DNA of 64,000 bases, from assembly GCA_032622095.1 (NCBI GenBank), contig CP136067.1, positions 173,262,556 through 173,326,555 on the forward strand, given 5' to 3'. The notes under the pieces are model-generated. The model was given only the letters and a program-made list of their open reading frames with translations. It was not told the origin of the DNA and searched no databases. Positions 20,305 to 55,152 of the stretch are shown piece by piece (position 1 is the first letter of the stretch; every line of letters starts with the position of its first letter). Both the position numbers and the translations under genes were made by a program. Source of the DNA: Siphonodentalium dalli. Its lineage: Eukaryota > Mollusca > Scaphopoda > Gadilida > Siphonodentaliidae.

Positions 20305-20346
20305 TACGGCGGCCTGGAACCGCCACCTCCTCTTCAGTTAGTTTCC

Positions 20347-20727
20347 TGATATATCAGGTTACCTATCCTGATATATCAGGTTAGTATCCTGATATATCAG
20401 GTTACGTATCTTGATATATCAGGTTATTATCCTGATATATCAGGTTACTTATCATGATATATCAGGTTATTATCCTGATATATCAGGTTACGTATCCTGA
20501 TATATCAGGTTATTATCCTGATATATCAGGTTAGTATCCTGATATATCAGGTTATTATCCTGATATATCAGGTTACGTATCCTGACATATCAGGTTATTA
20601 TCTTGATATATCAGGTTACGTATCCTGATATATCAGGTTATTATCCTGATATATCAGGTTACGTATCCTGATATATCAGGTTACGTATCCTGATATATCA
20701 GGTTATTATCCCGATATATCAGGTTAT
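20347..20727 (+). repeat. left arm of F: 18 tandem palindromes
   Basis: Eighteen copies of CCTGATATATCAGG (a 14-bp perfect palindrome) are separated alternately by TTA or TTACG/TTAGT spacers. Only a few carry substitutions (TTGATATATC, CATGATATATC, CTGACATATC, CCCGATATATC). The orientation is read from the spacer TTACGTA. Confidence 0.95.
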
Positions 20728-21179
20728 GTCTCGACCAATCCAGAGTGTCGTCTCATTGGCGGAGGCTTGTGGTTGGTTGGATTCTTAGTCAATATTGTTA
20801 GGCCAATGTATATGCTCTTATATATGCGAGGCTACCAGTAGGAGACTCGCATATATAAAAGAGTTCATTGGCACAGGCTTTTGCAAAAATTTCAAGGAGC
20901 CCCAGTCACGGAAGTGTTAGCAAGACCCGAACCATCCACTGAGCGATGACCAGTCCATTATTAACCCTTTCTATACTAAATAATCATTGACGAGTAGTTC
21001 CCTTCGGAAATGATTAGATAATAAGTTCAAATGAAAGTGTCAATGACACTGTAGCTCAACGTTGGTAGGTGTTAATTTCATGCTGAGCTGTCAATAGAAT
21101 GATAAAGGACTCCTATAGAAGAAGGAAAGTCAAAAAGTTACAATAATGTACGCAATGGGCTTGTATTCTGTAGATGATA

Positions 21180-21790
21180 TTGTTATACCCCATTTTTCCG
21201 TCCGTCCGTGCGTCTGTATGTGCGTCCGTCAGTACGTCCGTCAGATGTCTGTTCATGTCATAACTTTAACAGTAGTGCTCAGTTCTCAATGAAATTAGGT
21301 ATGGATGTTCACTACTATGAGGAAATTAAATAGAGGTTTCCATCGTTTTGTTCGGATTTTCCATTCTAGAGTTATTCATCATTGTTTATCTGGAAATTTT
21401 GGATTTTTGGTCCGTCTGGTGTCTGTTCATGTCGTAACTTCAACAGTTGTGCTGGGATCTCAATGAAATTTGGTATGGATGTTCACTAGTATGATGACAT
21501 TCAATAGAGGGTTCCATTGTTCTGTTTCGCTTTTCCATACTAGAGTTATTCATCTTTGTTTATCTGGAAATGTTGGCTGTTTGGTCCATCCGATGTCTGT
21601 TCAGGTCATAACTTGAACAGTAATGCTCGGATCTCAATGAAATTTTGTATGGATGTTCACCAATATGAGGACATTTAATGGCACATTCAACTGATTTGTT
21701 TTGTTTTTTGTTCTATAGTTATTCATCTTTGTTTATATGAAAATTCTGATTTTTTGGGTCCAATCTGTCTGAGTATAGCAGTCATAAGTT
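21180..21790 (+). repeat. three ~180-bp repeats in the core of F
   Basis: GATGTCTGTTCATGTCATAA, TCTCAATGAAATT, GTATGGATGTTCAC and AGAGTTATTCATC... recur at about 21,245, 21,420 and 21,597. The first is preceded by a CCGTCCGTCCGTG-type run. Frequent stops exclude coding. The pattern resembles a dispersed repeat captured inside F. Confidence 0.75.
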
Positions 21791-22449
21791 ATAGATATGC
21801 TCACACTAGGCGGTAATCCACAAGGGGGTATGCACCGGACGACAGTCCATCTCTTGTTTTCATTTAAAACATTTCACCAATAAATGAGGGATGCATGTGT
21901 GCGAATGAAATCCTGCTGGCGGCCATGTTTTCTTTTCATAAATTGCGTAATAATTGGATACCTCCCATGTTTTTCAATGACATTTTTGGTGGCTCCCATC
22001 TCCCAGAAGATCCATATGAAGTTCAGTAAGGACTATATAAAAGATGTGGTCTGTATTGTGTGCCAAATCATTTAGTCATACAAAGTTTAAAATCCAAAAG
22101 GGCGGAAATGCTTTCAACGAAATTCGGAAACATTTGATATCCCCAGAGGTGACACAAAACACGCCTGTATAATGTTTTAAAATATTTGTTCCGATATTTG
22201 TTCTGCTGGGTGTGCCAATGGATCCAAATTTGAAATCCAAGATGACTGATGGCGGCCATGTTTTCTAATGAATTTCGGGAAAAAATAGATGGCTCCCTGA
22301 ATATCCATATGAAGTTTGGTGAGGGGTGTGTGGTTAATCGCCTACATGTACATGCCACATCACTCATCCTCATCGTCACCAAACTTAATATGGAACCAAC
22401 CACAAGCCTCCGCCAATGAAAGACGACATTCTGGATTGGTCGAGACAAC

Positions 22450-22712
22450 CTGATATATCAGGATACATAACCTGATATATCAGGATACGTAACCTGATAT
22501 ATCAGGATAATAACCTGATATATTAGGATACGTAACCTGATATATCAGGATAATAACCTGATATATCAGGACACGTAACCTGATATATCAGGATACGTAA
22601 CCTGATATATCAGGATAATAACCTGATATATCAGGATACTAATCTGGTATATCAGGATACGTAACCTGATATATCAGGATACGTAACCTGATATATCAGG
22701 ATACTAACTGAA
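22450..22712 (-). repeat. right arm of F: 12 tandem palindromes
   Basis: Twelve copies of the same 14-bp palindrome with inverted spacers (TACGTAA, TAATAA), so this is the reverse complement of the left arm with six fewer units. Variants (CTGATATATTAGG, CTGGTATATCAGG) do not coincide with those of the left arm, which suggests independent change after insertion. Confidence 0.95.
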
Positions 22713-22740
22713 GAGGGGGTGGCGGTTCCAGGCCGCCGTA

Positions 22741-23086
22741 GAAATCGAATTAGCGTCCGCGTTCGATGCCCAAGGTGTGGCAACTTATTCTTAATTTTGT
22801 CAGGGATTCACGCTATTTTGGGACGGAAATGATGTTGATATATTTGTCCAAAGAAGTCATCGTTTTGAATGTTCTATACGTTCTAAGTTTGTTCCTTGGA
22901 TGATCACGTCGATTGCTATTTTTGAGAAGTTTGGTGCGAATATTATCATTAAATATTTGTTTCTGTATTGAGTTATCGAAGAAGTCATTAATACCGTGAC
23001 TTGGGGACATGGATGTGACTAATTGTTGACATTGTGACAGCGACCTGCTCCATGAATCCAGATTAGATTCAAATAGTTGTATGCAC
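22741..23086 (-). pseudogene. non-LTR retrotransposon, coding remnant before element F
   Basis: On the minus strand the frame from 23,086 encodes a hydrophilic stretch including QKQIFNDNIRTKLLKNSN, a TAG at 22,813-22,815, then RESLTKLRISCHTLGIERGR, a TAA, and FDF. LTKLRIS.HTL.IERGR is the conserved block preceding the Cys cluster in many CR1/Jockey-type proteins. The frame continues directly into 20,304 once F and one GATTTC copy are removed. The 5' end joins M sequence at about 23,087 (ATGCACATTTCAGCC), so the insertion was 5'-truncated at birth, leaving about 900 bp. Confidence 0.8.
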
Positions 23087-23099
23087 ATGCACATTTCAG

Positions 23100-23592
23100 C
23101 CTCTCGTGAAAACAAGCTCATATCGGGCTTGTTTTAATGAGCGAAATAAGCTTCTTTGGGCGTTATTTAACCGCAATATACGGTTTATATATGGACCTAT
23201 AAATAACGCAAAATAACCCCATATTAGTATTATTTAATCTAGCTTTTTTCATCGACACGACCTACCAGATTCAAGCTCTTTATAATGTGTTTTCTATGCG
23301 GCCCTCGCCATTCAACGGAATACTGGCTATAAGCTCACTGTGTGCTTACTACAGAATCAAGTCCAAAAATTAACTTATATGTGAATACTTAGGTCCAATA
23401 TGAACCTACATGTATTTACCCGAGGATATGCTGCTATTAAAAAAATTAGATATTGGACTGTTTTAAAAACCGCGTTTAATAGGTCCATATATATAGCGTG
23501 CATGTATATTAGGTTAAATAATACGACTATATTAGTTTATTTCGCTCATTAAAATAAGCCCCGTTATGTGTTTATTTTAACGAGAACAGGCT
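23100..23592. mobile_element. M1 foldback unit following the retrotransposon
   Basis: CTCGTGAAAACAAGCTCATA and TTTTAATGAGCGAAATAAGC at the left mirror GCTCATTAAAATAAGCCCCG and TATTTTAACGAGAACAGG at the right. The centre carries CAAGCTCTTTATAATGTG. The left terminus lost its first bases next to the retrotransposon junction. Confidence 0.7.
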
Positions 23593-24125
23593 ACAAATTG
23601 ACATTATTTGAAAACTCAAAAACGCTCCATGTGGGCCTAAACGCTGGCTATTAAAACAGCCCTTTTTTGTGTATATTGGATATTTGAATATGAGATAAGC
23701 CCATATTGTGTTTAGTTTCATGACAATAGAGTGGAAAACAAACACGAATCAACCATCTCAAGACTTACCATACAGATTGTTCTTGTGAAAATAAGCACAT
23801 TTTGAGCGAAATAAGCTTATATTGGCATTATTTAACCGCAATATACGCTATATATGGACACAACACTCTTATAGATGTGGGTATGAGGGTATACTTTTGT
23901 AGATACCACGGTATATTTGGGTATGTGCACCATATACATGGGTACAGTATCACTGCATATACATTATTCGAAAACACTATACGCTCTATATGTGCTTAAA
24001 CTAAAGTTATTAAAACAGCCCTATATGGGATATTTCAATATGCGAGAAGCCTGTTTTGTGCTTATTTTTGCAATTCGTGTTGTGCAAAACAACACAAATA
24101 AACCAAATCAAGACTTACCATGTAG

Positions 24126-24676
24126 CTATCAGCTCATAACGGGATTTTTTTGCTGAGCGAAATAAGCTCCTTTTGGCATTATTTAACCGCAATATACGTT
24201 CTATATGGACCTAAAACGGGTTTTTTTTTAAACAATCCAATATGGGATTATTTTCATACGAAATAAGCCCATATTGGCATTATTTAATCTACCTTTTTTC
24301 CATCGACACGACCTACTAGATTCACGCTCCTTATAATGTGTGTTAACTGTGGCCCGCGCCATTCAAAGGAATGATAGAGATAACCTCACCGTGGGCTTAT
24401 TTTAGAATCAAATAAGTCCATATGAACAGTGTGAATATTTAGGTCCAATATGAACCTAATTACATGAGGATGTGTTGCGAAGAAAAAAAGTAGATTAAAT
24501 AATACCAAAGATAGGCTTATTCCGTGTAAAAATAGTCCAACATTTGACTGTTTTAAAAACCGTGTTTAGGTCAATATATAAAAAGTTCAGGTATATTGAG
24601 GTTAAATGATGCCAGTATGAGCTTATTTCGCTCATTAAAATAAGCCCGTTATGAGCTTATTTTTACGAGAACAGAC
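24126..24676. mobile_element. M1 foldback unit, ~550 bp
   Basis: GAGCGAAATAAGCTCC and GGGATTATTTTCATACG at the left pair in reverse with AGCTTATTTCGCTCATTAAA and the TCCGTGTAAAAATAGTCC region at the right. It closes with CTTATTTTTACGAGAACAG. The left terminal CTGTTCTCGTGA is replaced by CAGCTCATAACGGG. Confidence 0.65.
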
Positions 24677-24821
24677 TGCATATTGTCATTAATTGAACAC
24701 TAAATATATGCTTTGGGATATTTCAATATGCGATAAGCCCGCCTTATGCTTATTTTATCAATTCGTGTTGAAAATAACACAAATAAACCAACCCAAGACT
24801 TACCATGCAGATGTCAGCCTG

Positions 24822-24942
24822 GTCTCGTGAAAATAAGCACATACCAATATGATATTGGCCCGTGTTGTGCTTGGTCTCGTGAAAATAAGCACATACCAAT
24901 ATGATATTGGCCCGTGTTGTGCTTATTTTCACGAGAACAGCT
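24822..24942 (+). repeat. tandem duplication of an M1 terminus (2 x ~49 bp)
   Basis: GGTCTCGTGAAAATAAGCAC through CCCGTGTTGTGCTT occurs twice back to back, and the second copy runs on into TATTTTCACGAGAACAG. The two copies look identical, so the duplication is recent. Confidence 0.85.
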
Positions 24943-25301
24943 AGGCTGGAAAACAAGACGATTAAACAACTCAACATTTACCATGCAGAGGTCAGGCTAT
25001 TTTCTTGAAAATAAGCACTTAATTTTATTCATATAAGCTAATGTTGGCTTATTTAATCGCAATATATATAAGCTCTATATTGACATAAAACACGGTTTTT
25101 AAAACTAACATATCCTCCCATAAATACGCATATAATCGACCTATAATGTGAAATAGTTACGTATTGTGATTATTTGATTCTCAAATAAGCATATACTGGA
25201 GTCATAGCCGTGATTTCGTATTATGGCGCGGGCCACAGTGAAAACACATATTAAAGAGCGTACACCTGAAAAGCCATGGGTTCGCTTATTTGTTTCATTG
25301 T

Positions 25302-25453
25302 CCACATATAATCTGCTTATATAGAATAGCCTCATTATGAGTCGATATTATGACTAAATTGTTCTAATTTTCAGCACATTACCGACTTAATTTGAGGCGA
25401 TTCTAAGCAGATTATATACATAAAAAGCTTTATTATAAGCAGCTAATGTGCGG
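25302..25453. repeat. M2 hairpin module, copy d
   Basis: ATAATCTGCTTAT, GAGTCGATATTATGACTAAA, CAGCACATTACCGACTTAA and ATAAGCAGCTAATGTGCGG are in the standard order, but each arm has a substitution. This makes it one of the more decayed copies. Confidence 0.65.
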
Positions 25454-25571
25454 ATTTTAGGGAGAACAGGCTGTTTAAAACAGAACAATATGGGACTATT
25501 TACATACAAAATAAGCCTAGTGAGCTTATACCCGCTATTCAGTTGAATGACGCGAACCGTAGTAAAACACA

Positions 25572-26632
25572 TTTGCACTAGAATGCACCCATCACACATA
25601 TGGCATGTTTTGTGATATCTTGCCAACAGCAGTTTGAACCACGGGTGCTGGGCCCTCTTTTGAGAGATCGATAGAGAATCTAGATATCAAATTTCAGTTC
25701 ATCCATCGCTGAAATATTTGTGTGTACGGACAGAATATCTCTGTTATCTCCAGTTGATCTATTACACTAATTATGGTCTTAGTAATGACGTAAGAGTTGT
25801 TTGACATATTTATAGAACAATATAGACATCGCTCATATGAAGAGTGTGAATACGATTGGTTGCCACTGATGCTATATATTATATACCAATTGGGTTACAT
25901 TACTAGTTTGACTAGAATGCTTTGTGTATGTCATTGCACTTCAGCGGCAAAAAACGTCAAAGTCAATTCCGACACAATTAAATAAAAGACACGCGATCAT
26001 TGGTTAGTCTTTGATTATCAATGTATCAATGTGAACATGCCCTTATAGCGACTGATCTACGGTCTTCGGGAACATATCATCAAAATGCCAATTGCTTTGA
26101 GAATGAGAAAGCTTGTTTTCCCAGTTAATTAATAAGGCGCTTTAATAATCCATGTTTCAACATATTTTTCAGTACAATTTTGTCTAGAACCATGCGCTCG
26201 ATCGTTCGGCCGGACATGGTTTATATGCACCTGCGTCTTTCGGAAATGTTTTTAACGTCGAAGAAAGTTTCCAGAAATTTGTTCGCACATCATTTTCTAT
26301 GCGAGAAAAAAAAAAACGATTCCGCACGCATCTTTTAGACTCGATCTCAAATAATTTTCCGAGTTTCAAAGAAAGCAATCTTTCAATTTTGTTCTTTTAT
26401 GAACGATTTATTACCAAAATAAAACGAGATAACAATGCAAATTTAGCATAAATGTGGATTTAAAAATTTAAATTACAATTGGTGCCATCATTTCATATTA
26501 GCGCATGTGCATTCTTTACATTCTGTACTTCCGGTATGACGTAACATATTCGTGGAAGGACAGACAAATAAACAGATAAACAGAGATCCTGACCGAAAAC
26601 ATTGCTTGCGCCCAGCATAGACTGGCGCAAGT
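25572..26632. mobile_element. unclassified ~1.06-kb block interrupting the M domain
   Basis: The M sequence GTAGTAAAACACATT stops at about 25,571 and resumes as TAAAGAGCGTGATATGTC at 26,633; other M copies have these joined. The block starts TGCACTAGAATGCACCC and ends AGCATAGACTGGCGCAAG, whose reverse complement begins CTTGCGCCAGTCTATGC, a weak terminal inverted match. The content is ordinary AT-rich DNA without a coding signature. It is probably a transposon copy; I cannot define a target duplication. Confidence 0.5.
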
Positions 26633-26689
26633 AAAGAGCGTGATATGTCCTGTCACAAGCTCCATGAATTCCGTTCCCAGTTCCCAGTT

Positions 26690-27400
26690 CCCCTAAAATT
26701 GCACTTTTCGTTACTAAATCGGATACGTAGCCAGAGTCATGGTGGCCACCCGTGAATCCTTGTATTTTCGTGCGGTGCCACCCAGCTGGCATCTATAGGA
26801 AAGGGACGCGACCATGCAGCCCCTTCCAAATTTTCGAAAATCGGGCTGAAGTCGTGCATGGGGTGTCAATATAGCACTTTTCGTTACTAAATCGGCTGCG
26901 TAGCCAGAGTCATGGTGGCCACCCGGGAATCCTTGTAGTTTCGTGCGGTGCCACCAAGCGGGCATCTATAGGAAAGGGACGCGACCATGCAGCCCCTTCC
27001 AAATTTTCTAAAATCGGGCTGAAGTCGTGCATGGGGTGTCAAAATAGCACTTTTAGTTACTAAATCGGCTGTGTAGACAGTCATGATGGCCACACGGGAA
27101 TCCTTGTATTTTCGTGCGGTGCCACCCAGATGTCATCTATAGGACAGGGACGCGACCATATAGCCCCTTCCAATGTTTCGAAGATTGGTCTAAAGTCGTG
27201 CATGGAGCTCAAAATCGCACTTTTTGTTACTAAATCGGCTGCGTAGCCAGAACCATGGCGACCACCCGGGAATCCTTGTATTTTTGTGCGGTGCCACCCA
27301 GCGCGCATCTATAGGACAGGGACGTGGCCATATAGCCCTTCCACTTTTGTGAAAATTGGGCTGAAGTCGTGCATGCATGGAGCTAAAAATTGCATTTTTT
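26690..27400 (-). repeat. left arm of G: about four ~173-bp units
   Basis: Units contain TTACTAAATCGGCTGCGTAG, CATGGTGGCCACCCGGGAAT, CGTGCGGTGCCACCCAG and GCTGAAGTCGTGCATGG. The two outer units (to about 27,050) have GACGCGACCATGCAGCCCC and end in GGGGTGTCAA. The inner ones have ACCATATAGCCC and GGAGCTCAAAA. The same two subtypes occur in mirror order in the right arm. Confidence 0.9.
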
Positions 27401-27904
27401 TGTTGCTAACTCGGCTGCGTAGCCAGAACCATGGCGGCCACCCTGGAATTCCTTGCATTTTATGGGACCTAGTTTGTGATGTTTCGATTCCACAAGGATA
27501 GACTCGTGGCAGCTACGGTTATGCCTACGCAGGCGATTTAGCAATGAGAAATGATTTTTTTTTCATTATTTTGACCCCACGCACGACTTACGCCCAATTT
27601 TTGAACAACTGGACAGGCTTATGTGACTATGTTTGTGATTTTTAGATGGAATAGTGGTGGCATAAGAAGCATCCACAAGGATACCCTCGTGGCTGCTATG
27701 TGTATGCCTCCGCAGGCGATTTAGCAACGAAATATTATCTTTTTTTTCATTATTTTGACCCCACGCACGACTTACGCCCAATTTTTGAACAGCTGGACAG
27801 GCGTATGTGAACTAGTTTGTGATTTATAGATGGACTAATTGTGGTATAAGAAGAATACACAAGGGTAGCCCCGTGGCTGCTATGGTTATGCCAACGCAGG
27901 CGAT

Positions 27905-28256
27905 TTAGTAACATATCCTCGCACGAATACGCACAAAACCGACCTAAATTTTAATTAGGTACTTAAAGTGATTATTTGGTTATGAAATAAGCAGATAATG
28001 GAGTCATAGTCGTCATTTCGTATTTTGGCGCGTGCCACAGTGAAACTACATGCTAATGAGCGTACACCTGAAAAGTTTGGTTTTTATTTTTGTCATTGTC
28101 AGCACATAATTTACTTAGAATTGCCTCTATGAGTCGATAATTTGACTAATAGGAACTCATTTTCAGCACATTGTCGACTCAAAATGAGGCGATTCTAAGC
28201 AGATTATCTACCTAAATTATTGTTTCTTCTCAGCAAATAATGTGCTGGTTTTCAGG
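27905..28256 (+). repeat. M fragment inside G, first copy (with M2 copy e)
   Basis: GATTTAGTAACATATCCTCG joins a G unit to M sequence (ATACGCACAAAACCGACC ... GAAATAAGCAGATAATGG). It ends with an M2 hairpin at 28,101-28,247 (GAGTCGATAATTTGAC and CAGCACATTGTCGACTC). The junction at GATTTAGCAACATATCC is the same as in the copy at 28,988, so the pair arose by duplication of a composite unit. Confidence 0.75.
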
Positions 28257-32109: not shown

Positions 32110-35100
32110 CCAATTAGACCATGAACAAACAAATATTCACCTCCCCACTGAGACCAAAATCCCTTTCATGTGGCCAAATTGTTTTGTTCAGTGCCTGCCT
32201 ATATTCTAAAGTCAAATGTGGAATCATTTTCAGAATGAGTAGAGTCTGAGACTGACCCCAAAATATTATTTCACAAGCACAGGTGTTGCATGGTCCATTG
32301 GATTTATCATGGGTTCTGCAGGTGTTGGGCCAGCTCCGTGCCCTTCAATCCCAACCAGGAGCTCAAACTTCAGTAAATATTTTATGCAGATGCAGATCTA
32401 TCCATTAACAAATTAATGGGTACTGGGCCCAATTCAAGTTAAAAAATACCCAATCGACTTTAAACACAAATATTCACCTCACCTGAGCCCAAAATCCCTT
32501 CAACGTGCCCAAACATTAAATGGGTTACTGGGCCCAATTCAAGTTAAAATTATCCATTTGACTATTAAACACAAATATTCACCTCCCCCTCAGCCCAAAA
32601 TCCCTTCCAGTTGCCCAAATAATCTTTTTTTCGGTGTCTGAGATAACACTGACCCCAAAATATTATTTCATAGGTACCAGTGCCATATGTTTTATCATGG
32701 GTGGTATGGGTGTTGGACTGATTCCTAAGCCTAAAATACCAATATGGCTATTAAAAACACAAATATTCCTCTCCCCTCGCCCAAATTCCCTTCCAGGTAA
32801 CAAAATATTTTCTGTTGATCGCCTGCCTATACTCTAAAGTCATATGTGGAATCATGTTTCATAAATGAGTGTTGTCTGATTGAACACTGACCCCAAAATA
32901 TGACTCTATAGGCACAGATGCTGTATGGTTTACCATGGGTGCTGTGGGTGTTGGGCTGGCTCCATACTCTTAAATCCAATACGGGAAATCATTTACATAG
33001 GTGCTTACCTATTCAATAACACTAAAAGCCCTGGATGTAGATATCAATAATGGCACAATATAAGTTAAATATACCAACTTGACTATTAAAATTCCTAATA
33101 TTCCACTCCCCTTGACCAGAGCCCAAAATAACTTCCAGGTGCCAAAATATATCATTTTCAGAATGGGCATAGTCTGAGACCCAGAAAAATGATTTTATAG
33201 GCACGGGTGCTGTATGGTTTCATCATGGGTGCCGTGGGTGTTGGGCTGTCACCACACCCTTAAAACCCACCGAGGAGCCCAAACTTTTGCACATCTTCTT
33301 AAACAGATGAATATATTTCCAAAAACACTAAAAGTACTGGAAGTTGATATCTATAATGGGTCACAATTCAAGTTAAATATACCAACTTAACTATTAAAAA
33401 ACCCAAATATTCCCCTCCCCCTGACCAGAGCCCAAAATACCATTCAGGTGCCCAAAGAATTGTTTTACCATTGCCTACATATATTCTGAAGTAAACTGGA
33501 TTAATTTTCAGAATAGGTATAGTCTGAGAGAACACTGACCCAGAAATATGTTTTCATAGCCGCTGTATGGTTTCATCATGGGTGCCGTGGATGTTGGGCT
33601 GTCACCATCTCCTAAAAACCCACTGAGGAGCCCAAACTTTTGCACATATTCTTATACAGATGAAACACTAAAACTACAGGAAGTAGAAATCTATAATGGG
33701 TCACAATTCACGTTAAATATACCAATTTAACTTTTAAAAAACCCAAATATTCCCCTCCCCCTGACTAGAGCCCAAAATCCCATTCAGGTGCCCAAATATT
33801 TTGTTCTCATTGCCTCTATATATTCTAGAGTGAAATATGGAATCATTTACAGAATGAGTATAGTCTGAGAGATGGCTGATTCAGAAATATGTTTTCATAG
33901 GCACGGGTGCTGTATGGTTTTATCATGGGTGCTGTGGGTGTTGGGCTGTCTCAATACCCTTAAAACCCACTGAGGAGCCCAAACTTTGTGCAAACCATTT
34001 GCATAGATGCATACCTATCCACAAACAACAAAAGTGTTGGAAGTAGATACATATAATGGGTCATATGGCCCAATTCAAGTTAAATATACCAATTTAACTT
34101 GAATTGTCATGGGTGCTGTGGGTGTTGGGCTGTCTCCATACCCTTAAAACCAACTAAGGAGCCCAAACTTTTGCAAATCTTCTTATACTGATGCAGATAT
34201 CTCCAAAAACACTAGGAGACCTAGAAGTATATACCTTTACAGGACCCAATTCCAGTTAAATATACCAATTTAACCATTAAAAAAACCAAATATCCCCCCT
34301 GAATAGAGCCCAAAATCCCATTCAGGTGCCCAAATATTTTTGTTCCCATTGCCTCTATATATTCTAGAGTGAAATGTGGAATCATTTACAGAATGAGTAT
34401 AGTCTGAGAGATGGCTGACTCAGAAATATGTTTTCATAGGCACGGGTGCTGTATGGTTTTATCATGGGTGCTGTGGGTGTTGGGCTGTCTCAATACCCTT
34501 AAATCCCACTGAGGAGCCCAAACTTTGTGCAAACCATTTGCATAGATGCATACCTATCCACAAACAACAAAAGTGTTGGAAGTAGATACATATAATGGGT
34601 CATATGGCCCAATTCAAGTTAAATATACCAATTTAACTTGAATTGTCATGGGTGCTGTGGGTGTTGGGCTGTCTCCATACCCTTAAAACCCACTAAGGAG
34701 CCCACACTTTTGCAAATCTTCTTATACTGATGCAGATATTTCCAAAAAAACTAGGAGACCTAGAAGTATATACCTTTTCAGAACCCAATTCCAGTTAAAT
34801 ATACCAATTTAACCATTAAAAAAAACAAATATCCCCCCTGACTAGAGCCCAAAATCCCATTCAGGTGCCCAAATATTTTTTTCCCATTGCCTCTATATAT
34901 TCTAGAGTGAAATATGGAATCATTTACAGAATGAGTATAGTCTGAGAGATGGATGATTCAGAAATATGTTTTCATAGGCACGGGTGCTGTATGGTTTTAT
35001 CATGGGTGCTGTGGGTGTTGGGCTGTCTCAATACCCTTAAAACCCACTGAGGAGCCCAAACTTTGTGCAAACCATTTGCATAGATGCATACCTATCCACA

Positions 35101-36752
35101 AACAACAAAAGTGTTGGAAGTAGATACATATAATGGGTCATATGGCCCAATTCAAGTTAAATATACCAATTTAACTTGAATTGTCATGGGTGCTGTGGGT
35201 GTTGGGCTGTCTCCATACCCTTAAAACCCACTAAGGAGCCCAAACTTTTGCAAATCTTCTTATACTGATGCAGATATTTCAAAAAACACTAGGAGACCTA
35301 GAAGTATATACCTTTACAGGACCCAATTCCAGTTAAATATACAAATTTAACCATTAAAAAAAACCAAATATCCCCCCTGAATAGAGCCCAAAATCCCATT
35401 CAGGTGCCCAAATATTTTTTTCCCATTGCCTCTATATATTCTAGAGTGAAATGTGGAATCATTTACAGAATGGGTATAGTCTGAGAGATGGCTGACTCAG
35501 AAATATGTTTTCATAGGCACGGGTGCTGTATGGTTTTATCATGGGTGCTGTGGGTGTTGGGCTGTCTCAATACCCTTAAAACCCACTGAGGAGCCCAAAC
35601 TTTGTGCAAACCATTTGCATAGATGCATACCTATCCACAAACAACAAAAGTGTTGGAAGTAGATACATATAATGGGTCATATGGCCCAATTCAAGTTAAA
35701 TATACCAATTTAACTTGAATTGTCATGGGTGCTGTGGGTGTTGGGCTGTCTCCATACCCTTAAAACCCACTAAGGAGCCCAAACTTTTGCAAATCTTCTT
35801 ATACTGATGCAGATATTTCCAAAAACACTAGGAGACCTAGAAGTATATACCTTTACAGGACCCAATTCCAGTTAAATATACAAATTTAACCATTAGAAAA
35901 AACCAAATATCCCCCCTGAATAGAGCCCAAAATCCCATTCAGGTGCCCAAATATTTTTTTCCCATTGCCTCTATATATTCTAGAGTGAAATGTGGAATCA
36001 TTTACAGAATGGGTATAGTCTGAGAGATGGCTGACTCAGAAATATGTTTTCATAGGCACGGGTGCTGTATGGTTTTATCATGGGTGCTGTGGGTGTTGGG
36101 CTGTCTCAATACCCTTAAAACCCACTGAGGAGCCCAAACTTTGTGCAAACCATTTGCATAGATGCATACCTATCCACAAACAACAAAAGTGTTGGAAGTA
36201 GATACATATAATGGGTCATATGGCCCAATTCATGTTAAATATACCAATTTAACTTGAATTGTCATGGGTGCTGTGGGTGTTGGGCTGTCTCAATACCCTT
36301 AAAACCCACTGAGGAGCCCAAACTTTGTGCAAACCATTTGCATAGATGCATACCTATCCACAAACAACAAAAGTGTTGGAAGTAGATACATATAATGGGT
36401 CATATGGCCCAATTCAAGTTAAATATACCAATTTAACCATTAAAAAAAACAAATACCACCCCTGACTAGAGCCCAAAATCCCATTCAGGTGCCCAAATAT
36501 TTTTTTCCCATTGCCTCTATATATTCTAAAGTGAAATGTGGAATCATTTACAGAATGGGTATAGTCTGAGAGATGGCTGACTCAGAAATATGTTTTCATA
36601 GGCACGGGTGCTGTATGGTTTTATCATGGGTGCTGTGGGTGTTGGGCTGTCTCCATACCCTTAATACCCACCGAGGAGCCCAAACTTTGTGCAAACTATT
36701 TGCATAGATGCATACCTATCCACAAACAACAAAAGTGCTGGAAGTAGATACC
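32110..36752 (-). repeat. ~538-bp satellite array, right, inverted
   Basis: Reverse-complement copies of the left satellite. CCATTCAGGTGCCCAAATAT recurs near 33,780, 34,315, 34,853, 35,393, 35,934 and 36,479 (spacing 538-545). Units beyond 33,590 are very similar to each other and to the left array; those from 32,110 to 33,590 are progressively diverged. Near 36,240-36,430 an extra short half-unit is present, with the change at the CAATTCAAGTTAAAT hairpin. The array ends sharply at CAAAAGTGCTGGAAGTAGAT, the same unit phase at which the left array starts. Confidence 0.95.
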
Positions 36753-37206
36753 TAACAGTGATGGAATAGGTTATGTACAGTGCCCAAATTTATGGGAGGC
36801 CAAATTCACATTTAATAATGAATTGCGCTTATTGTGCTTAAGCGCAAATAGGGCATTTACGCTTAAGCACAATTAATTGCGCTTAAGCGTAATTGTGACT
36901 ACTATCTAACCTACCATAAACTATTAGCATGACCTGGTGTATCACCTAGCAACACAAGATGAGCATTGGGCTAATTTTGAACTGTACTCAACAGTCAAAC
37001 TGTGAGTATGTGTTCAACAAGGAGAATCCCCTAATTACATATTATCAGCATCCCTCTATCCAAAGAATTGATGTCGCCTTCCCGGAACTCTAGTAATGTT
37101 TTGTTTGATGTTTTTAATGTATTTTTGCAAGAGATTTTAGCCTTTACTATGGTAATATCCTATACATGCATGCGGTGTCACTGCATGAGGGCTTTCTTAC
37201 CTCATA

Positions 37207-37415
37207 CAGTAATGCTCTATTTAATCGACTTCTTAACCACAGCAGAATTATGGGTAACTTTTCAGGATTTAGTCGGAAATATGGCTTGTTGCCATTCATC
37301 GAAAAGCTCTGAGAGCTTTCCGATGAATGGCAACAAGCCATATTTCCGACTAAATCCTGAAAAGTTATCCATAATTCTGTTGTGGTTAAGGAGTCGATTA
37401 ATTAGAGCATTACTG
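37207..37415. mobile_element. Tc1/mariner-type palindromic MITE, copy 1
   Basis: Termini CAGTAATGCTCTA and TAGAGCATTACTG are flanked by TA on both sides, the classic mariner target. The whole 209 bp folds as one stem: GCCATTCATCGAAAAGCTCT meets AGAGCTTTCCGATGAATGGC at the centre. It is inserted in E1. A 153-codon frame crossing it is only an accident of the palindrome. Confidence 0.88.
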
Positions 37416-37670
37416 TATGGTTTACTTATTGACTTAAATCAGGGGGGAAAAACCCTATTTTCATATTATCAGCATCCCTGTCCAAAAAAATGGTGTGTAA
37501 TTACTGGAGCTTTGGTGTCTCAGTCCTGAAGCTCTAGTTTTTCTTATTAAATCAGCAGCTCTTGCACAAATCTATAGCATTTCCATGATCATATAGTGTG
37601 AATGTGGTGTCAACGAGGGCTTGCTTCCCTCATATGGTGTGCCTGTATACTCGAAAATTGAAGAAAATCA

Positions 37671-37798
37671 ATGTCGCCCCGACTAATACAGAAAGTAATG
37701 CTATTGCAAGTAGCCCCAACTAATATATACCGAAGATAATATAATGCTATCACGAATCGCTCCAACTAAAACAGAAGGTGATACTATTGCGAGTCAGC
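37671..37798 (+). repeat. three ~50-bp repeats in E1
   Basis: GCCCCGACTAATACAGAAAG, GCCCCAACTAATATATACCG and GCTCCAACTAAAACAGAAGG each precede a GATA/TAATGCTAT-type segment. They are diverged tandem copies without coding meaning. Confidence 0.65.
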
Positions 37799-38013
37799 CA
37801 TTTTGATAAAGAAGTTGGGCTAGCTCCCTACCCATCCAAACCAATGAAACCAAGAAGTGACATGTCAATAGGAGTTAATGCTAAGTTATGGAGAAACCTA
37901 TTTATTCACCAGGGGTGTTTTGTTACATATAACCATGAATTGCGCTTAAGCGTAATTATTTGCGCTTAAGCGCAATTAATTATTAAATGTGAATTTGGAC
38001 TCCCATACAAATT

Positions 38014-42504: not shown

Positions 42505-43101
42505 TATGTCTCATAAGATACGTGCTTATGAATACTTGTTCCTCTGAGATCTGATCAAACTGAATCAATTTACTCTTTGTGCGGTTTTACCTTCTCGACC
42601 TTCCCAACGATAATATCATTGCTTGCTTTTATCTGAAATATACCTCGCTGGAATTGTGCTTCTGTTTACATAACACAGCGCAATTCTATTGGTTAATCAC
42701 ACAAAAATGATATAAACGCTCTTTATTATTTCCATATCAGGAAAACATTAACAAATAACGCTCTTTATATTTACCATATCCGGATCTAAACAAAAGCCAG
42801 GTCACGTAACGTTTTTTTGCTTTTGTTTACATAACAAAGGGGAAATATTGACAATAACATACTGTTTATGCCATATTTCTGATTGGCACAAGAACAAAGT
42901 CTCTCTATATCTTACTATTCCTTCTGTTTATGGCGGTTTTTGACTGAGGTGAATATTTTAACAGCATACCCACCGCCAACGCCGCCCGTATCTTTAATGC
43001 CTACGTGTGAAAAGGACCATAATTCCTTTTGTCCTGAAAACATATATTTACTTCAGCATTGTCGCTAAATTGAATGATTGGAGTGTTAAAAAAAAAAGAA
43101 A

Positions 43102-43549
43102 GGGAGTGTGTCGTCCACTGACAGTTTAAGAATGGGAGTGTGTCGTCCACTGACAGTTTGAGAATGGGAGTGTGTCGTCCACTGACAGTTTAAGAATGGG
43201 AGTATGTCGACCACTGACAGTTTAAGAATGGGAGTGTGTCGTCCACTGACAGTTTAAGAATGGGAGTGTGTCGTCCACTGACAGTTTAAGAATGGGAGTG
43301 TGTCGTCCACTGACAGTTTAGGAATGGGAGTGTGTCGTCCACTGACAGTTTAGGAATGGGAGTGTGTCGTCCACTGACAGTTTAAGAATGAGAATGTGTC
43401 GTCCACTGACAGTTTAAGAATGAGAGTGTGTCGTCCACTGACAGTTTAAGAATGGGAGTGTGTCGTCCACTGACAGTTTAAGAATGGGAGTGTGTCGTCT
43501 ACTGACAGTTTAAGAATGGGAGTGTGTCGTCCACTGACAGCTTAAGGGT
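43102..43549 (+). repeat. 32-bp minisatellite, 14 copies (unit 1)
   Basis: Exactly 14 x 32 bp. Copy 4 carries GTATGTCGACC and copy 2 GTTTGAGAAT, as in the third array; the array at 2,962 has the same copy-2 and TCGACC marks but two fewer units. Confidence 0.95.
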
Positions 43550-45266: not shown

Positions 45267-45286
45267 GTCGCTCTTATGCTTTGCTA

Positions 45287-45468: not shown

Positions 45469-46065
45469 TATGTCTCATAAGATACGTGCTTATGAATACT
45501 TGTTCCTCTGAGATCTGATCAAACTGAATCAATTTACTCTTTGTGCGGTTTTACCTTCTCGACCTTCCCAACGATAATAGCATTGCATGCTTTTATCTGA
45601 AATATACCTCGCTGGAATTGTGCTTCTGTTTACATAACACAGCGCAATTCTATTGGTTAATCACACAAAAATGATATAAACGCTCTTTATTATTTCCATA
45701 TCAGGAAAACATTAACAAATAACGCTCTTTATATTTACCATATCCGGATCTAAACAAAAGCCAGGTGACGTAACGTTTTTTTGCTTTTGTTTACATAACA
45801 AAGGGGAAATATTGACAATAACATACTGTTTATGCCATATTTCTGATTGGCACAAGAACAAAGTCTCTCTATATCTTACTATTCCTTCTGTTTATGGCGG
45901 TTTTTGACTGAGGTGAATATTTTAACAGCATACCCACCGCCAACGCCGCCCGTATCTTTAATGCCTACGTGTGAAAAGGACCATAATTCCTTTTGTCCTG
46001 AAAACATATATTTACTTCAGCATTGTCGCTAAATTGAATGATTGGAGTGTTCAAAAAAAAAGAAA

Positions 46066-46513
46066 GGGAGTGTGTCGTCCACTGACAGTTTAAGAATGGG
46101 AGTGTGTCGTCCACTGACAGTTTGAGAATGGGAGTGTGTCGTCCACTGACAGTTTAAGAATGGGAGTATGTCGACCACTGACAGTTTAAGAATGGGAGTG
46201 TGTCGTCCACTGACAGTTTAAGAATGGGAGTGTGTCGTCCACTGACAGTTTAAGAATGGGAGTGTGTCGTCCACTGACAGTTTAGGAATGGGAGTGTGTC
46301 GTCCACTGACAGTTTAGGAATGGGAGTGTGTCGTCCACTGACAGTTTAAGAATGGGAATGTGTCGTCCACTGACAGTTTAAGAATGAGAGTGTGTCGTCC
46401 ACTGACAGTTTAAGAATGGGAGTGTGTCGTCCACTGACAGTTTAAGAATGGGAGTGTGTCGTCCACTGACAGTTTAAGAATGGGAGTGTGTCGTCCACTG
46501 ACAGCTTAAGGGT
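46066..46513 (+). repeat. 32-bp minisatellite, 14 copies (unit 2)
   Basis: Same length and marked copies as the array at 43,102; it differs by single bases such as GGGAATG versus AGAATG in one unit. It follows the D copy of unit 2. Confidence 0.95.
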
Positions 46514-46743: not shown

Positions 46744-46995
46744 TTTTACTTTGCATCGCTTACAATCCTATAATTTCTCCAGGGTAATTATGTTTCAATG
46801 TTTCTTGCGATATCTTATAAAAAAAAGTCACCAAAAAGGGATGCATTTTTAGTTGGGATCACCCACTACTGTGAAGTAGTTTATTCAGGAACAAATATTA
46901 ACAAAGACATATCATGCCTTGTTTGTTCAATGTTATAAGTTCCCTGTCAGAACGGGTCAGAACATCAAAAACTTCGATCAAATAGATCAAATCGA

Positions 46996-48138: not shown

Positions 48139-48320
48139 CAGTAATGCCATAAATAATCGACTCCTTAACCACAGAAGAATTATGAGTAACTTTTCAGGAT
48201 TTAGTCGGACATATGGCTTGTTGCCATTCAACGGAAAGCGCTCAATGAGAGCTTTCCGATGAATGGCAACAAGCCATAATTCTGCTGTGGGTAAGGAGTC
48301 GATTATTGAGGGCATTACTG
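48139..48320. mobile_element. Tc1/mariner-type palindromic MITE, copy 4
   Basis: TA-flanked CAGTAATGCC...GGCATTACTG. It differs from copies 2 and 3 at the stem centre (CAACGGAAAGCGCTC), so this stem has small mismatches. Confidence 0.88.
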
Positions 48321-48478
48321 TATGTCTCATAAGATACGTGCTTATGAATATTTGTTCCTTTGAGATCTGATCAAACTGAATCAATTTACTTTTTGTGCGG
48401 TTTTACCTTCTCGACCTTCCCAACGATAATATCATTGCATGCTTTTATCTGAAATATACCTCGCTGGAATTGTGCTTG

Positions 48479-50340: not shown

Positions 50341-50361
50341 ATCTAGTACAGAAATGGTTAA

Positions 50362-50535
50362 AGGCATATTATGGACTTGTTCCGGTGCATGAAACTGATA
50401 AGTTAGTATTCAGGTGCTATGCCAACTGGAGGAATGCAGCATTCTACTAACATCGCCAAAAATCTCAAGCAAATTGAACGTGCCATTCCATAGAAAATAT
50501 CGTCCGAATTGTGCTCAATTGTAAATGTTTACTTC
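50362..50535 (-). repeat. dispersed ~140-bp segment, copy 3
   Basis: The reverse complement carries CATTCCTCCAGTTGGCATAG, CACCTGAATACTAACTTATC and AGAAGTAAACATTTACAATT, all shared with 17,394-17,535 and 18,725-18,810. It lies outside the M domain, so this segment is an independent dispersed repeat. Confidence 0.7.
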
Positions 50536-50974
50536 TCTATTAGGGACGCAACAATCGGAGATAAACTAACGAAAATGATTTCGCGATCAAGAGTTACTAT
50601 ATTTAATTGATATATAGGAATGACGGCGTGTGTCGTCAATTTGGATGCAATTTTTGTAAACATACTACGTGGAGCAAGATTATTCTCCAATTCTATTGTA
50701 TCACCCGACTGGAGTGTTTCACATCACTTGGATGTCGCACCCATGACTCCTAATGTGAATCGACCCTCACATCGATCATTGGGCTGAACAATCGTGTAAT
50801 ACACATTCATTCTGCATTTTATCCTACTGCTGTGTGCCGAGCCCCTCGAGATAGAAAATGCTCATTTATCTTCCCGTGTACGCAAGCTGTGCTCTTCTGG
50901 GACACCTACACCAATACATCATCGCGAGTAATGGTAAAAATATTCAATATCCTATTGACATCGACAGTAAAGGG

Positions 50975-51240
50975 GATCTATTCGATTGTGAATCGGATCA
51001 CAACCGACGCTCGCTCGGTCTCTGTGATAAGAAGCTCGCATTATTTGTGGTAATCCGGTTTACTCTCTAGAGATACTATTGTTCTGTATATAGCTTACCA
51101 ACTCATCCACTAATATGAAATGGAATGATGTGGTTTTAAAGAATGTCTGGAAGTCAGGGCTCAAGAGACAAGCTCGAGGCATAGGCGCTATAACGTCTTT
51201 TCCGCTTCCCAAATCATACACCAATGAGTTACAGATAAGG
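50975..51240. repeat. K segment, copy 1
   Basis: ATTCGATTGTGAATCGGATC, GATAAGAAGCTCGCATTAT, GGTAATCCGGTTTACTCTC and GAATGTCTGGAAGTCAGGGC are shared, in order, with 54,025-54,440 and 57,425-57,660. Here it precedes a tandem array of the ~140-bp unit that follows it once in the 57-kb copy. Confidence 0.75.
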
Positions 51241-51245
51241 CCATG

Positions 51246-52200
51246 AGACACAATGTTATATATATACGTTTTTGAAGGTCGTTGTCACAAGTTTCTGACC
51301 ACAGGTGTGGCTATATTTTTTGAAATCCGCCACGTTGGTAGCAAGCAGAGACGAGTGGGTGTGACACAGACAGTAAGTCAGGAGACACAATGTGGCATGT
51401 ACGTTTTTGAAGGTCGTTGTCACATGTTACCGCATTGTCACATGTTACAAACGACAGTTGTGGATATTTGTTTCAGATCCGTCACGTTGGTAGCAGGTAT
51501 TGGTCAAACGAGTGTGTGTGGCACAGACAGTAAGTCAGGAGACACAATGTTACATGTACGTTTTTGAAGGTCATTGTCAGAAGTTATCAACGACATTTGT
51601 GGATATTTTTTTCCAAATCCGTCACGTTGGTAGCAAGAATTGGTCAGACGAGTAGTTGTGGCGCAGACAGTAAGTCAGGAGACACAATGTTATATGTACG
51701 TTTTTGAAGGTCATTGTCAGAAGTTATCAACGACAGTTGTGGATATTTTGTCCCCCAAATCTGTCACGTTGGTAGCACGAATTGGTCTGACGATTGGTTG
51801 TGGCGCAGACAGTAAGTCAGGAGACACAATGTTATATGTACGTTTTTGAAGGTCATTGTCAGAAGTTATCAACGACAGTTGTGGATATTTTTTCTCCAAA
51901 TCCGCCACGTTGGTAGCAGACATTGGTAAGACGAGTGGGTACGGCACAGACAGTAAGTCAGGAGACACAATATTAAATGTACGTTTTTGAAGGTCATTGT
52001 TACATGTTACCGCATTGTCACATGTTACCAACGACATTTGTGGATATATTTTTCTTCAAATCCGTCACGTTGGTAGCAAGAATTAGTCAGACGAGTGGTT
52101 GTGGCGCAGACAGTAAGTTATGTGACACAATGGTATATGTACGTTATTGAAGGTCGTTGTCACATGTTACCGTCGACATGGTAGCAAGGATTGATAAGAC
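51246..52200 (+). repeat. ~140-bp tandem array, about seven units
   Basis: GAGACACAATGTTATATGTA, CGTTTTTGAAGGTC, TTATCAACGACAGTTGTGGA, CCGTCACGTTGGTAGCA and GTGGCGCAGACAGTAAGTCA recur with 135-160 bp spacing. The 160-bp units contain an extra CACATGTTACCGCATTGT. Related single units lie at 53,940, 56,520 and 57,700. GTGGCGCAGACAGTAAG resembles a tRNA A box. The array looks like amplification of an internal part of a SINE-like element. Confidence 0.85.
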
Positions 52201-52370
52201 GAGTGGGTGTGACACAGACCGTATTAAGTTACATAGTAAATTATACAATAAACACCCACCAATAATGAAGCGGGTTCGATTCCCGTTAAGCGGAGATGTG
52301 CGACCCACGCGAATTTATCGGGTTATACATAATAATAAGAATAATAATATTTGTATAGCGATTATCCCCA
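52200..52370 (+). mobile_element. tRNA-like SINE segment with B box
   Basis: GCGGGTTCGATTCCCG at 52,270 contains GGTTCGATTCC, a perfect pol III B-box match. It is followed by GCGGAGATGTGCGACC...CGCGAATTTATCGGG and an AATAATAAGAATAATAAT tail. The upstream GGGTGTGACACAGACCG may be the A box. The same GGTTCGATTCCCG, then GTGATCTACGCGAATGTAGG, is at 57,834. It is not a functional tRNA: no acceptor stem or anticodon arm can be drawn. Confidence 0.6.
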
Positions 52371-52374
52371 ATAA

Positions 52375-53650
52375 GGGTGCGTTCATACACTGGCAAGTTT
52401 GCACCGCATGTTTTTGCAGGCATTTTCTCATAGAAAACCCTATGGTGTCAGAATATGAACGGAAACATGCATTTATAATGTATATTTAGTTATTTACCAA
52501 AGAAGTAAACTTTCGATAGTTCCACATGTAACGGTGCTACTAAAATACTAAATACCCGTATGAATGATTCCTGCGAGATAATTGCATGCTATTTACAGGC
52601 AATTGTCGATAGCATCGCTACAAGTGGAACTACATACATGTGTAGATTTTACTTCTCATATTGTTAGCTGTGGTGAATGCGCATTTAAAAAGCATGCTTT
52701 GCATTCGGTTTCTGGCACATTGTAGGCTTTCTACACCGCAATTCTTGCAAATGAATGCCTGGCAAATTTGCGACTATATGAACGTATCATAAGCGGGCCC
52801 TAAGCGCTTGACAAATCATATAAACATAAAAATTCAATATAAATCCACAAAAATCATGCAATATTTACAATATTCACAATATCAAAGTCATTTCTGAAAC
52901 GACGCGCGAACATGTAAGTTTTAGTAACTTCTTGAAGTCGTCGAGAGTTCGTGACTCTTTTATATTCAATGTCAGAGGACTCCATGCATTTGGATACGTA
53001 ACTTTAAAACAACGGTACACAACCGCGATCAAATTAGCACCAGATGGTGTCAAAAGAAGTTTGTCCTCTGAACGAAGTGATCGGCGTGGGACGTATGGAA
53101 TAAGGATATCACTGATTATGCTGGAAGAGCTTTAGAGTCATGGGTTAATTGCTTGATATGCATATGTCACAAGTTTATAAATAATTATATCTGTCACATG
53201 TAGCCAAGGTAGTTATTGCAACATTTCATCTATGTCGACAGATCTTTTACGACAGAGAACAACCCTTACAGCAGTGTGTTGCAGATGATGAAGCCTGGTA
53301 ATATATAGAATAGAAAGAGAGTTGCAATAGTCAAGTCGACTGAGATTCCGGGATGAAGCAAGTTTTTTTCCCCAGCTGAGTCAGTGTTGATGTATTTCCT
53401 CATTTGTCCTCATTTTGAAGTTCAATGTATATTGCCTTGCGTATCTGGCTTATACATGATGCCATAGACAGCGATCTATCAAAAAAATACATGTATGTTA
53501 ATATAAACGGACATGACTCGTTCGAGCTTCCAAATTTTGTCTACATAATTTGAAAACAAGGTGTAAGATAGGTTGACAAATACACAAAATATTGACATAC
53601 CGGCTTCATATGCTCTGAACAATACTTGCCATGGTCACAGCCATTATCCA
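52375..53650. other. no gene or repeat recognised
   Basis: Open frames up to 110 codons (52,157-52,489) overlap the SINE-like repeat. The 67-codon frame at 52,932-53,135 begins at TTG and shows no domain. I see no structured RNA or tandem pattern. Confidence 0.45.
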
Positions 53651-53659
53651 GCTGTTATA

Positions 53660-53745
53660 AATTTTTCACACAGAAGTGAAACAAACGCTCTTTATTTATA
53701 CCATATCCAGATAAGACTAGCACAGAACGCTCTCTTCTGTTCCAT
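53660..53745 (+). repeat. paired AACGCTCTTTAT motif block
   Basis: CACACAGAAGTGAAACAAACG, CTCTTTATTTATACCATATC and AACGCTCTCTTCTGTTCC reproduce the paired motif of the D family without the D termini. A sister block is at 62,540-62,612. Confidence 0.6.
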
Positions 53746-53929
53746 ACCGTGCATATGGCTGGGACCCAAACATCTTGTTCAAACTTGTATTTTGTATGAC
53801 TTTCTGTGACATATATAATTCTCGTAGAAGGGTAGTTCAAGTATTTATCGACCCATTACGATACCGGGAAAAAGTCAAAAGCGAATATTATTAGGTGTAT
53901 TTTGGAGCGCAAACCGCCATGTGGCTTAA

Positions 53930-54460
53930 ACCACCAGTAATCGGATTTTCAAACCAACCACGTTGGTGGCAAACACTAATGCAATGCCAATAAAACAACG
54001 ACATGGTTGCACAGACAGGAAGGGGATCTATTCGATTGTGAATCCGATCACTCCCGATACTCCCTCGTCTCCGTGATAGGAAGCTCTCATTATGCTGGTA
54101 ATCCGGTTATACATTCCAGAGATCATATACTGTTATGTATGAGGCCCCCACCCCACCCCCATGGAATACGGAATACCAGTTAACAGCCATATGGAATACA
54201 TACAAATATATGTAAACTTCATTTTTTGGAACGTCGGCGTACGAATACCGGTATATTTGGAATACCGAATACCTCCTAACAGGGGCCGGAATACAGCGTA
54301 CCTCATAACAGGGCATGGAATACGGCGTACGAAAAGGGGGGTGGGGGCCTCATGTATATATTCCCAAATAACCACTTCGGACAAGAGAACGATGGAGTAC
54401 TTTCAAGCAATGTCTGGCAGACAGGACTCAGTGTTCAAGGCACAATCAGCACAAAAGGCA
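53930..54460 (+). repeat. SINE-like/K segment copy split by element H
   Basis: CGGATTTTCAAACCAACCAC, GTTGGTGGCAAACA and GGTTGCACAGACAGG precede K (ATTCGATTGTGAATCCGATC ... GTAATCCGGTTATACATTCC). K resumes after H with CGGACAAGAGAACG and AATGTCTGGCAGACAGGACT. This fixes the original continuity of K across the insertion. Confidence 0.7.
54140..54352. mobile_element. MITE H, 213 bp, TGTA target duplication
   Basis: The ends TGAGGCCCCCACCCC and GGGGTGGGGGCCTCA are exact inverses, flanked by TGTA at 54,136-54,139 and 54,353-54,356. The K copy at 51,085 reads TTCTGTATATAG at the same place, consistent with a single TGTA before insertion. The interior has several GGAATAC repeats. A 147-codon frame runs through it, but it begins inside H and is not conserved, so it is rejected as a gene. 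Confidence 0.85.
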
Positions 54461-54616
54461 TTAGAGTCAGGGTCCGCACTGGACCGAAATTTACTTTTGC
54501 TAAATAATTTGCCAAATGAAAATATTTTTTGCCAAATGCTGTCCCTGATAGTATCATTTTCTACAACCTTGATTGAGTCTTATATTTCGACACTCGCGGT
54601 TTGAACGACGTTTGAT

Positions 54617-55152
54617 TATGGGATGCCAAATTGACATTTAATAAATAATTGAGCTTCAGCGCAATAAGGAATCCCTTATTGCGCTTAAGCGCAATAAGGG
54701 AAGATCTAATTGCGCTTAAGCGCAATAAGGAATATTCTTATTGCACTTAAGCGCAATTAGATCTTCCCTTATTGCAATTAAGGGCAATACGGGATTATTG
54801 CGATTAAGCGCAATTACATCCTTATTGCGCTTAAGCGCAATTAATATCTCCATCATGAGATCACCCCTCTGCAACTAGTAGAATTATCCTATATTTGCCC
54901 CACCCATTGTACCATGGACTACACAATTTGAATTATAGGGAGTTTATGTAATGTGACTAATTGCGCTTAAACGCAATAAGGAATATTCCTTATTGCCCTT
55001 AAGCACAATTAGCTCTTATTGCGCTTAAGCGCAATAAGAATATTCTTTATTGCGCTTAAGCGCAATTAGATCTTCCCCTATTGCGCTTAAAAGGGGATTC
55101 CTTATTGCGCTTAAGCTCAATTATTTATTAAATGTCAAGTTGGCATCCCATA
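54617..55152. mobile_element. foldback element E2, 536 bp, 6-bp target duplication
   Basis: TATGGGATGCCAAATTGACA and its near-exact inverse form the ends, with TTTGAT on both sides (54,611-54,616 and 55,153-55,158). The arms are dominated by tandem palindromes of the form TTGCGCTTAAGCGCAA, more than ten in each orientation, with spacers such as GATCTTCCCTTA. A ~100-bp unique core (54,850-54,950) remains. It is a shorter relative of E1 with the same end logic. Confidence 0.92.

Follow-up and report, generated by a model that had tools for sequence, protein, structure and literature searches.

The window analysed here, a 64,000-nucleotide stretch of contig CP136067.1 of the scaphopod mollusc Siphonodentalium dalli (GenBank assembly GCA_032622095.1, positions 173,262,556 to 173,326,555), contains the short transposable elements F, E1 and E2, together with the left part of another E-type element (Table 1). 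We consider it probable that F, which carries no genes, descends by deletion from a 28-kb transposon encoding a DDE transposase that matches the Pfam family rva_4, in a single reading that also comprises recognition of the palindromes in the element arms by the transposase, joint change of palindrome and transposase in each lineage, and membership of E in the same group. The connection of F to the large elements was observed directly in the shared ends and arms, the 6-bp target duplications and the transposase gene of the large copies.

As the earlier note on this DNA had described, F, E1 and E2 all combine exact 6-bp target duplications and a TAY start (Y, C or T) with inverted arms. The additional claim that these arms consist of tandem perfect palindromes holds strongly for F and for E2, which has 12 TTGCGCTTAAGCGCAA units (at most three mismatches), mostly 26–32 bp apart, and weakly for E1, with one perfect TTGCGCTTAAGCGCAA and few units in total. 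All 30 occurrences of CCTGATATATCAGG in the window (at most two mismatches) lie within F (shuffle mean 0.17), and all 20 occurrences of TTGCGCTTAAGCGCAA (at most three mismatches) fall in the E elements, namely E1, E2 and the one starting at 63554 (shuffle mean 0.19). A Pfam scan of the largest open reading frames (ORFs) of F and E1 detected no significant domain; the earlier note had stated that none of the three elements encodes a transposase.

Searching the genome (2.23 Gb, nine contigs) for rva_4 yielded at least 126 matches (the best 150 of 241 candidates were scored), and two loci of one rva_4 group, L036 and L037, terminate in F's own arm; the left ends of these giant elements were located by the pattern of a duplication followed by the F end. 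In the 28,218-bp giant, the terminal 32 bp are identical in inverted orientation, and the arms (885 and 819 bp, 90% identity) contain 35 and 32 perfect CCTGATATATCAGG. The left 481 bp and the right 347 bp of the window F match this giant, as do, weakly (70%), about 164 bp of the F interior; the remainder of that interior has no match to the giant. F would retain little of the 28-kb element except the arms. The earlier note had proposed a search for autonomous elements with the same terminal 20 bp, and for F the 28-kb element is such a partner: it shares the 32-bp end of F, has 6-bp duplications and encodes a DDE transposase of the rva_4/IS481-like type. The two giants on contig C4 are 99.2% identical over the compared 14.2 kb. 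Beside a fourth copy of the transposase (C5:81208690), an F end lies 1.7 kb away, and the second end was not found.

The transposase start codon is located 857 bp from the right end of the giant F, and the first exon ends at a GT donor (ATTCAG|GTGAGA) with the second exon following an AG acceptor, a splice predicted from the sequence. The protein matches rva_4 with an E-value of 2.7e-26 (Pfam); among the NCBIfam models, the IS481 model (E-value 2.1e-5) is the sole plausible match, and no H2C2 zinc-finger domain was matched. We take the catalytic triad, from the general rve pattern, to be D132, D191 and E231; D191 and E231 are invariant across 11 aligned rva_4 sequences, and D132 is nearly so. 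The AlphaFold model is of modest quality (predicted local distance difference test, pLDDT, 70.9; predicted template modelling score, pTM, 0.43). Its best Foldseek matches are IstA, MuA and TnsB (E-values 5e-5 to 9e-4, low TM-scores), whereas VIA-align places retroviral integrases on top (Z about 10), with a root-mean-square deviation near 4 over about 130 residues and only the core aligned. A genome search with the IS481 profile NF033577 was abandoned in favor of rva_4; the six loci read from it are Gypsy-type retrotransposons by their frames.

The duplications recur across the genome. Exact 6-bp duplications flank seven of nine F insertions, the remaining two showing one mismatch each; the independent copies comprise ATTATG, TAATTA and CCAATG (exact) as well as CAAAAG/CAAAAA and CTAATA/CTAATC (one mismatch each). 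The left end of F occurs in at least 40 identical copies (best 40 of 365 candidates scored), and all eight other fetched copies have the same flank as the window F, two longer ones matching the window across the large repeat listed in Table 1. Given this shared flank and the long shared stretch, GAAATC represents one insertion that was later copied with the host repeat. The independent insertions with other 6-bp duplications rule out that the F duplication is an artefact of this repeat. Compared copies of the repeat are 96–98% identical and contain few, short ORFs, and the repeat runs on into 173/184-bp tandem repeats.

Among 26 distinct E insertions with both ends seen, the 6-bp duplication is exact in 21 and has one mismatch in one (L047). 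Elements with one end only (L014, L016, the first element of L017 and of L018, and the element at 63554) and those representing the same insertion as a counted one (L018b, L019, L046, L088, L089) were left out; ten E pairs on contig C1 were chosen by spacing before the flanks were known. The count includes one wide pair of E ends, C1:102646029-102659658 (duplication CAAAAC, E1-type start, no listed rva_4 match), which we take, on these features, as an E element with a probable nested insertion; another wide pair, C2:77626076-77637333, has unlike flanks and was excluded. In the L044 lineage, both duplications are exact. Copies with duplications of other lengths, which the earlier note had regarded as evidence against a common group, did not turn up. 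Pooled over E, F and the L044 lineage, the 30 exact duplications show a weak symmetric base preference, with A at the second place in 15 (p 0.02) and T at the fifth in 17 (p 0.003; binomial test with an expected frequency of 0.31 for A or T, six places inspected post hoc).

The earlier note had remarked that the palindrome differs between F and E while the design remains the same, and this pattern extends past these two: eight palindrome kinds, that of F included, are arrayed next to rva_4 genes. If an array is defined as at least four identical 10-bp palindromes within 1.3 kb, a cut-off chosen after the counts were known, 11 of 31 rva_4 loci have one (4 to 41 units), against none of six Gypsy loci (all with 1) and none of the 41 tiles cut from the window outside F and E (maximum 3). 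Steps of 20–22 bp account for 33/33 in F (L036), 43/44 in L041, 28/29 in L044, 16/17 in L051, 39/39 in L093, 32/34 in L103 and 12/15 in L106, and the off-range steps are partly near 41–43 bp, that is, one missed unit. In a tree of 11 rva_4 proteins, built from partial ORFs, L036, L041, L044 and L051 belong to one supported clade that includes the array-less L045 (98/98); these four are the array lineages that the tree covered. The ends are TACGG in F, L043, L044 and L051 and TATGG in E, L041 (TATGGAG) and L049 (TATGGGG), with one end only available for L041, L049 and L051; for L044, L041 and L049, a second copy shows a sequence change exactly at this end. One compact member, L043, spans 3.07 kb, lacks an array, and has a terminal inverted repeat (TIR) matching at 16 of 16 positions and the duplication AGAACA/ATAACA (one mismatch).

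Table 1 Elements, duplications and palindrome arrays in the window and elsewhere in the genome (C, contig; L, locus)
Feature	Location	Strand	Details
Larger repeat around F	12229-27906	.	Matched without a break by two further copies in the genome; extends to at least 27906
F, non-autonomous element	20305-22740	.	2436 bp; ends TACGGCGG..CCGCCGTA
GAAATC, left target duplication of F	20299-20304	+	
GAAATC, right target duplication of F	22741-22746	+	
F left array	20345-20723	.	18 CCTGATATATCAGG units (at most 1 mismatch); spacing 21 or 22, mean 21.5
F right array	22449-22700	.	12 CCTGATATATCAGG units (at most 2 mismatches); spacing 21 or 22, mean 21.6
E1, non-autonomous element	36791-38007	.	Ends TATGGGAG..CTCCCATA; few palindromes, internal hairpin
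CAAATT, left target duplication of E1	36785-36790	+	
CAAATT, right target duplication of E1	38008-38013	+	
E2, non-autonomous element	54617-55152	.	Ends TATGGGAT..ATCCCATA
TTTGAT, left target duplication of E2	54611-54616	+	
TTTGAT, right target duplication of E2	55153-55158	+	
Fourth element, E kind, left part	63554-64000	+	Start TATGGGAGGTCAAATTCACATTTAATAAT; runs off window
Giant F	C4:26576442-26604659		28,218 bp; duplication GTTTTA both sides
Giant F	C4:60622662-60649741		27,080 bp; duplication TATATC
Giant F	C7:158584711-158613337		28,627 bp; duplication CATTGC both sides
L044 giant	C8:155464449-155505324		40,876 bp; duplication GTATCA
L044 giant	C7:164195858-164235351		39,494 bp; duplication AAAGGG
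TCGTGGCCACGA array	L041, L103		
GGCGTTTAAACGCC array	L044, L102		Weak in L102
TGTGATATCACA array	L049		L109 and L110, end pieces of two related loci
TCGAGATCTCGA array	L051		
CCTAATTAGG array	L093		
GTTAGCTAAC with TGATTAATCA array	L099		
CGTTATAACG array	L106		

The duplications, ends and gene provide the frame of ordinary end recognition by a DDE transposase, and within this frame, the enzyme would recognize the ends via the rows of palindromes. Three facts suggest that the palindromes are its binding sites: they persist in both arms of copies without the genes, their sequence differs from lineage to lineage, and the units are spaced by close to two helical turns. Each palindrome could accommodate a dimer of the N-terminal helix-turn-helix part of the transposase, and the spacing of about two turns would align the sites along one side of the double helix. 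Palindrome and transposase would have changed together in each lineage, and the lineages would therefore not mobilize each other's copies. The predicted fold, a helical N-terminal part joined to an RNase-H-like core, is shared with TnsB of Tn7, MuA of Mu and IstA of IS21, which differ in being bacterial or phage enzymes with partner ATPases. Tn7 and Mu have several spaced binding sites per end and generate 5-bp duplications.

Several observations weigh against this reading. The helix-turn-helix part is predicted from a sub-threshold Pfam match and the modest-quality model. The array threshold is not reached at 20 of the 31 rva_4 loci, where some windows may stop short of an array, and no array was found within 3.5–9 kb at L042, L043, L045, L031-L035, L038, L039 and L050, so that arrays are not required by the whole rva_4 family. 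The spacing is looser in L049 (19/26 steps at 20–22 bp), L099 (6/12 and 12/16 for its two units) and L102 (1/4), and the E units are mostly 20, 25–27 or 29–32 bp apart; helical phasing is hence not strict. The second ends of L041 and L051 were not found. Finally, four of the 26 E insertions have no duplication (L010 and L011, both with altered right ends, L020 and L090), and a non-exhaustive genome search found no autonomous E partner at the rva_4 loci read.

Other functions of the palindromes can be envisaged. The arrays might be operators or promoters through which the transposase gene regulates itself, rather than transposition sites, given that an array lies directly upstream of the transposase frame in all four lineages where the gene was read (F, L041, L044 and L051); we deem this improbable, as arrays occupy both arms of the giant F, one of them separated from the gene by about 26 kb, and F and E, although they lack genes, retain palindromes in both arms. 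Still less credible, in our estimate, is functionless, satellite-like growth of a short palindrome homogenized by unequal exchange or gene conversion. Variation of the unit number by arm and copy (32, 35 and 41 perfect units) and the irregular spacing in E copies would follow from such growth, but eight unrelated palindromes share the same design and a near-constant spacing within one family, and none is present at the control loci. We attach the same low probability to the arms acting as foldback DNA, with hairpins or cruciforms as the recognized or replicated structure: the arrays are indeed self-complementary, and at L090 an E end and its flank are joined to their own mirror image with no duplication, but regular 6-bp duplications and a DDE transposase point to ordinary end recognition.

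The remaining alternative concerns E, which could represent a different superfamily that also produces 6-bp duplications. A search of the rva_4 loci for E ends found none (L034-L039, L041-L045 and L049-L051), and no rva_4 gene at the loci checked had the E palindrome array alongside, with no E array in 14 upstream windows (L093-L106), where a lone GCTTAAGC occurs in L097 and L098 only. We nevertheless judge a separate origin to be unlikely because E has TATGG..CCATA ends, 6-bp duplications and palindromic arms, like the rva_4 lineages L041 and L049. We consider E most likely to belong to the superfamily of F as a non-autonomous member, a placement suggested by ends, duplication and design only; the autonomous copy of the lineage that mobilizes it would be lost or degenerate, or lie outside the loci reached.

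The 28-nt E end has 9,117 matches in the genome (at most three mismatches) and none for the reversed control, and with short forms so common, the group has contributed much to the makeup of this genome. An E element with the duplication GATATG (L040:5879-7194) lies inside the giant F, common to two giant copies, and E therefore moved before these two copies arose. In L087-L089, a host repeat bears two E2 insertions 52 bp apart, a spacing that recurs at many listed places; apparent E2 'dimers' with a constant 52-bp spacer are explained by this one repeat (three loci read). The mirror-image fusion at L090 (C1:31119670-31119820), which includes about 29 bp of host flank, is a palindromic rearrangement. 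The middle of E1 (about 37210-37420) forms, by eye, a near-perfect hairpin of about 200 bp, and the related E in L040 has a 218-bp self-inverted match. Locus L019 (C2) shares its flanks with E1.

By ends, duplication and transposase, set against published descriptions rather than IS3EU proteins, the group fits the IS3EU superfamily. According to PMC10045372, IS3EU elements have TA..TA ends and usually 6-bp duplications, and group with GingerRoot, apart from Ginger and Polinton; for IS3EU of rust fungi, PMC12730594 gives TAYGG..CCRTA ends (R, A or G) and TIRs over 30 bp. The elements described here share the 6-bp duplications, the TAYGG..CCRTA ends and the TIRs over 30 bp and, in the F lineage, an IS3/IS481-related DDE core without an HHCC (H2C2) domain match, in agreement with the IS3EU type named in the earlier note. 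They differ in the size of 28–41 kb in two bounded lineages, the rows of palindromes in the arms and the HECT-like cargo, in place of which the fungal TET-carrying IS3EU families have TET/JBP and alpha-kinase genes (PMC12730594).

Other known systems resemble the group in part. Galileo, a foldback-like member of the P superfamily, has long inverted arms and many copies without transposase but differs in its 7–8-bp duplications and P-type transposase (PMC4168063), the duplications here being 6 bp. The 4-bp or 4–5-bp duplications of Ginger1 and Ginger2 likewise set these apart (PMC10045372). Polinton/Maverick elements share 6-bp duplications (again PMC10045372), large size and an rve-type DDE enzyme, whereas the ends here are TAC; no polymerase B or capsid domain was matched in the 15 scanned of 19 ORFs of at least 100 amino acids, a scan that split genes could escape. 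A review on giant transposons, judged by term counts and passages, mentions neither IS3EU nor HECT (PMC6431247). In the titles and abstracts listed, palindrome arrays, giant size and a HECT gene are not described for any IS3EU element, nor are they in passages of PMC8268682 and PMC9587614. As far as the literature searched extends, the kind is already known and the variant was not encountered.

The giant F also contains a 564-amino-acid frame with a match to the HECT C-terminal region (5.7e-7, residues 458-559). Compared with the genome, this frame gave 62 matches in 35 clusters (weak matches to an E-value of 6.5e-4 are included here and in the shuffles), and 16 of the 35 lie within 40 kb of an rva_4 match, whereas 20,000 shuffles, uniform within contigs and so blind to clustering of mobile DNA, averaged 0.14 and never exceeded 3. 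The clusters near rva_4 include those of F, L041, L044, L045, L051, L093 and L099; the array loci L049, L102, L103 and L106 have no HECT-like match nearby. Among the 19 clusters away from rva_4 is C9:71882172, a 100% match flanked on one side by an F arm with 41 perfect units and with no listed rva_4 match nearby. HECT-like clusters without a nearby rva_4 match also occur at C6:70.0-71.9 Mb, C3:36.6-42.2 Mb and C5:224 Mb. It seems to us an evenly balanced proposition that a giant IS3EU-type clade unites the transposase, arms of many lineage-specific palindromes spaced by about two helical turns and a gene resembling HECT ubiquitin ligases, with transposase and palindrome co-evolving as lock and key and the HECT-like protein serving the element, for example, through turnover of the transposase or of a host silencing factor.

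With eight natural transposase–palindrome pairs, this single genome offers a series for the study of how a DNA-binding part and its sites change together, and since the palindrome of each lineage adjoins its own transposase gene, the matching of transposase and site could be tested directly. The giants show that IS3EU-type enzymes can ride 28–41 kb elements with near-identical copies, which a HECT-like gene tends to accompany.

The window also includes 184-bp tandem repeats in opposite orientation at 4722-11202 and 34462-36437, the second array adjoining E1. A 32-bp minisatellite unit, AAGAATGGGAGTGTGTCGTCCACTGACAGTTT, is present at 2956-3342, 43096-43546 and 46060-46510, perhaps inside copies of one repeat.

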